Assembly (NCBI RefSeq): GCF_000023985.1
Contig: NC_013156.1
Location: 484,363-548,362, forward strand
Direction: 5' to 3'
DNA from: Methanocaldococcus fervens AG86
GTDB taxonomy: Archaea > AGJL01 > Methanococci > Methanococcales > Methanocaldococcaceae
Length of the DNA stretch: 64,000 nt
Shown here: positions 20,936-55,986 of the stretch, in pieces
Layout: the number at the start of each line of letters is the position of its first letter
Numbering within the stretch: the first letter of the stretch is position 1
Notes under the pieces: model-generated
Database searches by the model: none
What the model saw: the letters and a program-made list of their open reading frames with translations, nothing else
What the model was told of the DNA's origin: nothing
Made by a program: the position numbers and the translations under genes

Positions 20936-21787
20936 ATGGTAAAGAAAGCAGTGATTCCAGTAGCTGGTTTTGGAACTCGATTGTTGCCAATAACGAAAGC
21001 ACAGCCAAAAGAAATGCTTCCAGTAGTTAATAAGCCAATAGTTCAGTATGTCGTTGAGGATTTAGTAGAAGCAGGAGTAAAAGATATTTTGTTTGTGACT
21101 GGGAAGGGAAAGCAGGCAATAGAAAACCACTTTGACATGAATTATGAATTAGAATGCAAATTAGAGAAATCTGGAAAATATGAACTTTTAAAAATTATTA
21201 AAGAAATTGACAAGTTAGGAAATATATTTTATGTTAGGCAGAAAGAGCAGAAAGGTTTGGGCGATGCCATCTCATATGGGGAGGACTTTGTTGGGGATGA
21301 ATACTTTATAGCAATGGTTGGAGATACAATTTACTCCAAGAATATTGTAAAGGACTTAATAAAAGCCCATAAAAAATACGGTTGCTCAGTTATTGCATTA
21401 GAGAGAGTTCCTAAGGAAGAAGTTCATAAGTATGGAGTAATTGAGGGGGAAGAGATAGATGATGGAGCTTACAAAATAAAAAATATGGTTGAAAAGCCAA
21501 AGGTTGAAGAAGCTCCTTCAAATTTAATTATAACAGGGGCTTATCTTTTATCCCCAAAAATATTTGAGAAAATTAAACAAACACCTCCTGGAAGAGGGGG
21601 AGAGGTGCAAATTACAGACGCTATGAATTTATTATTAAAGGAGGAGGATATTGTAGGGATTGAGATTGACTGTAAAAGATACGATATTGGGGATGTTCTT
21701 GGATGGTTAAAGGCAAATGTAGAGATTGGAGCTGAGAAACTTCCTGAATTTAGGGAGTTTTTAAAAGAATTTGTTAAAAATTTATGA
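20936..21787 (+). CDS. galU: UTP-glucose-1-phosphate uridylyltransferase
   Basis: 283 residues. AVIPVAGFGTRLLPITKAQPKEMLPVVNKPIVQYVVEDL is the GalU nucleotide-binding opening; ENHFDMNYELE, GLGDAI, GDTIY, VEKPKVEEAPSNLIITGAYL and PPGRGGEVQITDA follow in normal order. It makes UDP-glucose, the substrate of the Ugd at 12742. It is divergent from gmhA, sharing a ~90-bp promoter region. Its last 35 bases and the following ~15 bases are duplicated at 21901-21949, flanking a hairpin element (see repeats). Confidence 0.92.
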   Translation: MVKKAVIPVAGFGTRLLPITKAQPKEMLPVVNKPIVQYVVEDLVEAGVKDILFVTGKGKQAIENHFDMNYELECKLEKSGKYELLKIIKEIDKLGNIFYVRQKEQKGLGDAISYGEDFVGDEYFIAMVGDTIYSKNIVKDLIKAHKKYGCSVIALERVPKEEVHKYGVIEGEEIDDGAYKIKNMVEKPKVEEAPSNLIITGAYLLSPKIFEKIKQTPPGRGGEVQITDAMNLLLKEEDIVGIEIDCKRYDIGDVLGWLKANVEIGAEKLPEFREFLKEFVKNL

Positions 21788-21800
21788 TTAACTTATAGTT
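21753..21800. repeat. galU 3'-end segment, first copy of a ~49-bp direct duplication
   Basis: The last 35 bases of galU plus 13 bases beyond the stop recur at 21901-21949 with about four differences (for example GGGAGTTTTT against GGGAGCTTTT, and a one-base insertion). The second copy does not encode anything. The 100 bases between the copies carry two hairpins, so the duplication looks like a long target duplication around an inserted element, or a tandem duplication with an intervening insert. Confidence 0.8.
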
Positions 21801-21837
21801 AATGTTATCAAAATTAATAAATGAAATTCGCTAATTT

Positions 21838-21896
21838 ACACCTCCGAACGTAGTGAGGAGGTGTTATAAGTATCGCAATAGGAGTTTCTCCTATGC
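21838..21896. repeat. Palindromic element of two hairpins between duplicated galU tails
   Basis: Hairpin 1 has 8-bp arms ACACCTCC (21838-21845) and GGAGGTGT (21857-21864) around GAACGTAGTGA. Hairpin 2 has 7-bp arms ATAGGAG (21878-21884) and CTCCTAT (21888-21894) with a TTT loop, extended by GC/GC after a bulged A. The element is much richer in G+C than its surroundings. It could be a small non-autonomous mobile element, a structured RNA end of the galU message, or a transcription barrier before the next gene. Confidence 0.65.
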
Positions 21897-21900
21897 TTAT

Positions 21901-21949
21901 GGGAGCTTTTAAAAGAATTCGTTAAAAATTTATAATTAAACTTATAGTT
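21901..21949. repeat. Second copy of the galU 3'-end duplication
   Basis: Aligns with 21753-21800: GGGAGCTTTTAAAAGAATTC followed by GTTAAAAATTTATAATTAAA then CTTATAGTTT. The galU stop TGA is TAA here, and the reading frame has no start. It immediately precedes the promoter-proximal sequence of the EamA-like gene at 21961. Confidence 0.8.
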
Positions 21950-21960
21950 TTTGTGAGATT

Positions 21961-22374
21961 ATGGATATAGCCATAATATTGGGGCTTTTAGTGGCATTGT
22001 TTTATGGCGTTGGAACATTCTTTGCAAAAATTGTTTGTGAAAAAAACCCTTTATTTCAATGGGTAGTGGTAAATGTAGTTGGGATTATACTATGTTTAAT
22101 CATATTAATCAAATATAAAAATATAATTATAACTGAGCAAAAAATTCTTGGCTATGCTATAATATCGGCAATATTAGTTGTTATTGGTTCTCTAATATTA
22201 TATTATGCATTATACAAAGGAAAGGCAAGTATTGTTGTTCCATTATCATCAATAGGACCAGCGATAACAGTGGCTTTATCAATACTGTTTTTAAAAGAGA
22301 CGCTAACAACATACCAAATGATTGGTATAGTCCTCATAATTGTTGGCATCATTCTTCTTTCAATATCTAATTAA
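21961..22374 (+). CDS. Small EamA/DMT-family membrane transporter
   Basis: 137 residues with five hydrophobic segments, half the size of a ten-helix drug/metabolite transporter. The C-terminal half reads GSLILYYALYKGKASIVVPLSSIGPAITVALSILFLKETLT and then YQMIGIVLIIVGIILLS, the typical EamA ending with the conserved ...LKE.LT..Q.IGI.LI..GI.L pattern. Such half-size members likely dimerise in the membrane. No substrate is suggested by neighbours: galU lies to the left with a hairpin element between, and the next gene is on the other strand. Confidence 0.75.
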   Translation: MDIAIILGLLVALFYGVGTFFAKIVCEKNPLFQWVVVNVVGIILCLIILIKYKNIIITEQKILGYAIISAILVVIGSLILYYALYKGKASIVVPLSSIGPAITVALSILFLKETLTTYQMIGIVLIIVGIILLSISN

Positions 22375-55278: not shown

Positions 55279-55986
55279 ATGAAGAAAATTAAAATCAAAG
55301 ATTTTTATATAACAATTGATAGGTGCTTAATTTACAAGGATTATGGAATAATAGCTGACACTCATATAGGATTCGATGTCTTTTTTGGTGAAGGTGGAGC
55401 TAATTTCCCATTACTTCAAAAGGATGAGGTTATAAAAAAAGCCTTAAACATAGTTGAAAAATATAAAATCAGCAATTTAATAATTAATGGAGATATAAAG
55501 CATAATTTTAAACCATTTCCTAAAGAAATTGAATTTTTAAAAGAATTTATTGATTTTATGAGTGAGTATGTTAATGTTATTTTAATTAAAGGAAATCATG
55601 ACACCTTTATATCCCCAACTGGTTATGAAATTTTTGATTACTTTGAGATTGACAATTATATAATTTTTCATGGTGATAGAGAAATAAATAAGGATTTATT
55701 AAAAAACAAATTTTGGATTTTAGGGCATGAGCATCCGTCGATAAAACTTAGGGATGAAGTTGGAGCGATTATAAAGCTTCCAGCTTATCTATTAAATAAA
55801 AATTATATTGTTTTACCGGCCTTTAATCCTTTATCTCCAGGAAATGATTTAATTAACAATCCCGCATCATCTAAGGTTATAAAAAAAGATTATTTGAATT
55901 CAGAAGTTATAGCAATAACTGATATTGGATTATTAAACTTTGGAACGCTTAGGAAGTTAAGAGAATTTGCCAAATCACATCTTTAG
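55279..55986 (+). CDS. Calcineurin-like metallophosphoesterase (SbcD/MJ0037-type)
   Basis: 235 residues from ATG 55279, four bases after AGTGA; an ATG at 55267 is also in frame. [15 protein letters not shown] (DxH), INGDIKHNF (GDxxH-like), [11 protein letters not shown] (GNHD), IIFHGD, and [11 protein letters not shown] (GHxH) are the five metal-binding motifs. Small archaeal relatives are phosphatases or nucleases of unknown targets. Its stop is immediately followed by the convergent DUF655 gene end. Confidence 0.88.

Follow-up and report, generated by a model that had tools for sequence, protein, structure and literature searches.

A short hairpin element lies between two near-identical copies of the galU tail in Methanocaldococcus fervens AG86 and is a member of a dispersed family confined to the genus Methanocaldococcus. 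We consider it probable that this is a short protein-less mobile element, that its long target duplication arises through a widely staggered cut, and that gene conversion or exact loss of the element between the two copies may follow later.

The locus lies in a window of 64,000 nucleotides (NC_013156.1, positions 484,363 to 548,362), and its layout is given in Table 1. An initial annotation of this DNA had described a 59-bp segment with two hairpins bordered by a 49-bp near-identical duplication of the galU 3' end. Both hairpins are present with the arms described but 100 bp, and not 59, separate the two copies, while the duplication itself was recovered in full: an ungapped 39-nt repeat (21753-21791 and 21901-21939) shows 92% identity and with one gap the repeat reaches 48/49 nt. 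Copy 2 retains the natural upstream sequence of the downstream gene. To the left of hairpin 1, positions 21824-21837 (AAATTCGCTAATTT) are similar to the sequence preceding hairpin 1 in other copies of the family (L022, L023, L097, L110), and to its right the ATAAG/CTTAT arms may be an extension of the second hairpin of the window copy. The element folds with z-scores of -4.6 as DNA and -4.2 as RNA, with none of the shuffled sequences as stable.

Table 1 Features of the galU locus and its hairpin element (positions are those of the window)
Feature	Position	Strand	Description	Basis
galU (UTP-glucose-1-phosphate uridylyltransferase)	20936..21787	+	ORF; the left half of copy 1 consists of its last 32 nt and stop codon
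Duplication copy 1	21753..21800	+	Joined to galU; takes in the galU stop codon	
AT-rich left part of insert	21801..21837	+	37 bases between copy 1 and hairpin 1
Hairpin 1	21838..21864	+	ACACCTCC-GAACGTAGTGA-GGAGGTGT; arms ACACCTCC at 21838-21845 and GGAGGTGT at 21857-21864
Hairpin 2	21866..21900	+	Core ATAGGAG-TTT-CTCCTAT (arms at 21878-21884 and 21888-21894), outer arms ATAAG/CTTAT; right end of element
Duplication copy 2 (orphan galU tail)	21901..21949	+	Begins straight after hairpin 2
Small EamA-like membrane transporter gene	21961..22374	+	Intact despite the duplication; gene order same in relatives	Named by sequence alone

Orthologs of galU were found in 13 of the 14 genomes of the genus (73-100% amino acid identity), and the tail of the gene is single in G001, in the MAG G011 and in others. 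Compared with the empty allele of G011 the window element, in genome G000, is a 146-bp insert accompanied by one substitution in copy 1, two in copy 2 and indels. Because this allele is 98.7% identical in galU and has no insert, the recent event is either the insertion itself or an exact loss of the element, and the view in the initial annotation that the insertion is not recent may or may not hold. We fetched ten further gene-end families across up to 14 genomes, the duplication in families F9 to F11 being read off directly, outside the duplication script. A duplication was present at most filled sites and at none of the empty orthologs, with copy 2 decayed or missing at a few filled sites (F6 in G000, F3 in G004 and F5 in G009). 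Two clean near-isogenic pairs were obtained, galU in G000 (filled) against G011 (empty) and a porB-like gene in G005 against G004, and in both the flanks are near-isogenic on either side. Comparison of filled with empty sites demonstrates that the element inserted, duplicated a long stretch of its target and left both neighbouring genes intact. Over roughly 3 kb around window positions 20936-22374 the galU locus of G011 (L041/L118, contig C132) matches that of the window's genome at 96-99% identity, and other gene ends of the two genomes are 80-91% identical; the high identity at galU reflects either allele exchange or a mis-binned contig.

From species to species a given gene end carries different chains of modules with the left boundary of the duplication unchanged, and a simple one-off insertion does not explain differing chains at one boundary. 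At the identical base galU of G006 carries another chain of hairpins, and here too the tail is duplicated; at this locus (L044) the element supplies a different end to the gene, the C-terminus changing from NL to NLL.

A DNA search matched seven places in the element's own genome, and the 197-bp query matched 13 of the 14 genus genomes, some through the galU tail only. The hairpin 1 pattern, ACACCTCCG-N(3-12)-GGAGGTGTT, had exact matches in 9/14 genomes of the genus and in none of 22 other genomes of the order, and the reversed pattern used as a control gave no matches. In a scan of 84,980 species, which may not include records close to the window's genome, the pattern occurred in Methanocaldococcus records only, and viral contigs gave no match. 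The proposal in the initial annotation of a non-autonomous mobile sequence with target duplication is borne out by this multi-copy family and by the empty galU ends in relatives, so that the element is neither a single occurrence nor enclosed by duplicated tails that all relatives share. One match, at window position 55531, was rejected; it falls within a coding region and probably reflects AT-rich chance similarity. In total we collected 67 unique copies by sampling stretches around the matches, and the copy counts are lower bounds.

The element is modular, consisting of one or more hairpin modules with no protein gene. Hairpin 1 has a constant loop across the family (GAGCGNAGCGA or a near form) and a mostly constant stem. 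The window copy has GAACGTAGTGA at this position and, because the family consensus loop is GAGCGTAGCGA, its G>A and C>T changes in hairpin 1 are compensatory. Hairpin 2 (CAATAGGG..CCCTATG) is variable, with core arms that are complementary in 16 of 17 copies through eight different arm sequences, and additional hairpins may come after or before, either as a third one (GATGAAACTTT..AAAGTTTC) or as a chain. Composite copies (L022, L023, L032) carry inverted hairpin 2 modules at their left which simple copies such as that of the window do not. Other composite forms (L060, L066, L072, L087) adjoin CRISPR arrays or CRISPR-repeat-like sequence, and an Rfam search of the loci matched CRISPR repeats alone, at six loci with E up to 1.

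The long duplication is widespread in the family. We compared the left and right flanks of the 67 unique copies, a number that leaves out those embedded in CRISPR arrays, with control placements at a distance of 700-900 bp within each locus. Direct repeats above 99% of the null flank 33/67 copies compared with 5/261 control placements, and some of the control matches are explained by an internal repeat of a ferredoxin-like gene (L027 and L014) or by a CRISPR array (L087). In 30 of the 33 duplicated copies, 42-97 nt separate the start of the duplication from hairpin 1, and copy 2 begins at or near the 3' arm of the last hairpin of the element. Duplicated targets include 3' gene ends (galU, trpB-like) as well as 5' gene ends (L011, L031, L084), and at L032 the gene is continuous with the copy on the right, as would be expected under target duplication. 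The duplicated sequences differ at every gene examined and have no common core. About half of the copies show no detectable duplication, through decay or absence.

Differences between the two copies fall at 35/203 third codon positions as against 19/398 first and second positions, and with this third-position bias the orphan copy has therefore not simply drifted. Across species pairs we counted 81 concerted sites, where the copies agree within a genome and differ between genomes, 39 orthologous sites, where first copy matches first copy and second matches second across the genomes, and 14 crossed sites, these counts being pooled over overlapping pairs and not independent. Family F2 shows this best: the sister genomes G007 and G013 each carry two nearly identical tails unlike those of other species. 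Together with the third-position bias, the concerted pattern points to gene conversion between the copies as its best account, repeated insertion at one site being the alternative. Exact empty sites near filled relatives would fit recombinational loss between the copies, or recent insertion. At the end of the porB-like gene (L014, L027) G005 and G010 share an identical orphan copy while their coding copies differ at several positions, a pattern which suggests that the downstream side may have been exchanged between species with the element as boundary. Over the 10 nt of copy 2 that adjoin the right end of the element there is an excess of mismatches, 41/250 against 22/250, and these are biased from A in copy 1 to G in copy 2 (17, against 4 from G to A); these figures come from 25 site/genome pairs, with pairs and starts chosen by hand, and serve as a lead only.

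We propose that the element joins its target, the joining form probably being either a folded single strand or a duplex with hairpin ends. The two target strands would be cut at positions 40-100 nt apart and filling in of the gap would create the long duplication. As the duplication extends into the end of the gene, the gene would be rebuilt on one side of the element with the neighbour keeping its own upstream sequence on the other, and insertion in very short intergenic regions would be tolerated. Gene conversion may later move sequence between the copies, and the element may be excised exactly when they recombine. Counting against this explanation are the variable length of the duplication, unlike that made by most transposases, the failure to find a transposase or autonomous partner in the classes searched, the half of the copies that show no duplication, the differing module chains at one left boundary, and the possibility that independent insertions at a single site produced the concerted pattern.

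Candidates for the mobilising enzyme were sought in three classes (RVT_1, Y1 and DDE_Tnp_1_6), which proved absent or rare, and no transposase or autonomous partner for the element was found among them. Target-primed reverse transcription, in the manner of a SINE, by a resident reverse transcriptase would be consistent with duplications that are long and variable and with a structured 3' end; this is very improbable and largely refuted by the absence of any reverse transcriptase match (RVT_1, PF00078) in all 14 genus genomes, with positive controls. An IS1182-type transposase (DDE_Tnp_1_6, PF13751) was likewise not found in the genus. The hairpins, the single-strand folding and the intergenic dispersal recall REP or IS200-IS605 type elements moved by a Y1 transposase, and the initial annotation had entertained a REP-like identity. 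In the strict sense this is not supported, there being no Y1/RAYT transposase in the element's own genome or in 11 of the 13 others; the Y1 domain (PF01797) occurs in 2/14 genomes only, and neither the window's genome nor the copy-rich G003 is one of them. The gene is intact in G006 (L203) and broken by TAG stops in G013 (L204, L205). REP/IS200 elements are not known to make a target duplication, which sets them against the long duplications seen here, and we regard such an origin as unsupported and exceedingly improbable. Because reverse transcriptase and the IS1182-type transposase went undetected and Y1 occurs in two genomes only, we tentatively infer a staggered-cut insertion.

The main rival to staggered-cut insertion is template switching during replication, in which a stalled nascent strand peels back 40-100 nt, copies the element from elsewhere and returns upstream by microhomology, with no transposase involved; the peeled stretch is copied twice because the strand returns upstream of its point of departure. 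The variable length of the duplication, the hairpin-rich, modular and interchangeable elements and the failure to find a transposase all speak for this model, as does the excess of mismatches in the first 10 nt past the junction. Elements ending in CTATGCTTAT also often meet a TTA/TTAT target (galU, L024, L096, L097), a candidate tendency that would favour it too. Template switching should however also give downstream or distant returns, and with them deletions or much longer duplications, whereas the copies mostly show 42-97 nt, and the defined ends of the element argue for end recognition. We therefore hold template switching to be a serious contender, if an unlikely one. The copies might instead reflect replacement by a donor tail, a gene end from another species recombining, with its element, within the gene and being joined illegitimately, which would make copy 1 the foreign one and leave copy 2 as the native one. 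Differences between the copies are mostly synonymous with copy 2 still readable, and in family F3 of G000 copy 2 is closer than copy 1 to the empty relatives, as this would predict; both copies are nevertheless nearly identical with the same species-specific tail at several sites (F2 in G007 and G013), and the flanks on both sides of the G005/G004 and G000/G011 pairs are near-isogenic, leaving donor-tail replacement improbable. Direct repeats of a gene 3' end bordering foreign DNA are also typical of attL/attR, and the element could be what is left of a site-specific integrative element after the plasmid or virus was deleted. Since the targets are many unrelated genes, struck at 5' and 3' ends alike, with no core in common and with one small element recurring in all of them, this remnant reading is not supported and is highly improbable.

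Duplications of usually 42-97 nt imply either that the target is cut with a very wide stagger or that insertion is coupled to replication. An element of this kind can spread in a compact genome, the long duplication rebuilding the gene end that is struck, and the second copy feeds gene conversion and can alter the C-terminus of the gene, as in the changed galU tail of G006. Near-isogenic filled and empty alleles make the insertion process testable. It is possible, if somewhat doubtful, that the family represents a new mechanistic class of archaeal mobile DNA in which hairpin modules with duplications of about 40-100 nt, and with no recognisable transposase or reverse transcriptase, duplicate and later convert host gene ends.

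Most prokaryotic target duplications are 2-15 bp, and a literature search, with most subscription journals outside its coverage, returned no account of duplications of 40-100 nt. The window family has several traits of MITEs, being short, protein-less, dispersed and multi-copy, with filled and empty orthologous sites and a target duplication far longer than is usual. MITEs such as RUP, NEMIS/Correia and those of Sulfolobus are likewise short, protein-less, dispersed and target-duplicating, but their ends are terminal inverted repeats, their duplications are short and a partner transposase moves them, whereas the window family has separate hairpin ends, with inverted hairpin 2 modules at the left of composite copies, and no partner was found in the classes searched. 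REP/BIME elements with RAYT share the modular intergenic hairpins, and differ in that the window's genome is without a Y1 transposase and the duplication here is long. Direct repeats of the IS1182 family are variable and long, up to 60 bp, and in this respect alike, although DDE_Tnp_1_6 is without a match in Methanocaldococcus. For IS1272 an inverted-repeat-replacing mechanism is reported (PMC5678879).

Within the genus itself, the palindromic repeats of M. jannaschii were reportedly named MJRE1-3 by Suyama and colleagues in 2005. These repeats resemble the window family in genus, palindromic structure, dispersal and mostly intergenic sites. Two papers (PMC2229807, PMC2996958) cite them (Suyama, Lathe & Bork 2005, FEBS Lett 579:5281) as archaeal repeats with coding potential, and the two families are probably the same. 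The nearest precedent found for a variable target duplication is YPAL/RU-2 of Yersinia, an intergenic element of about 168 bp with internal inverted repeats, known empty sites and duplications of 3-26 bp (PMC2229807). Its size class, inverted repeats and variable duplications are similar to those of the window family, the duplications being 3-26 bp there compared with about 40-100 nt here, a resemblance of form for which we claim no kinship in sequence.
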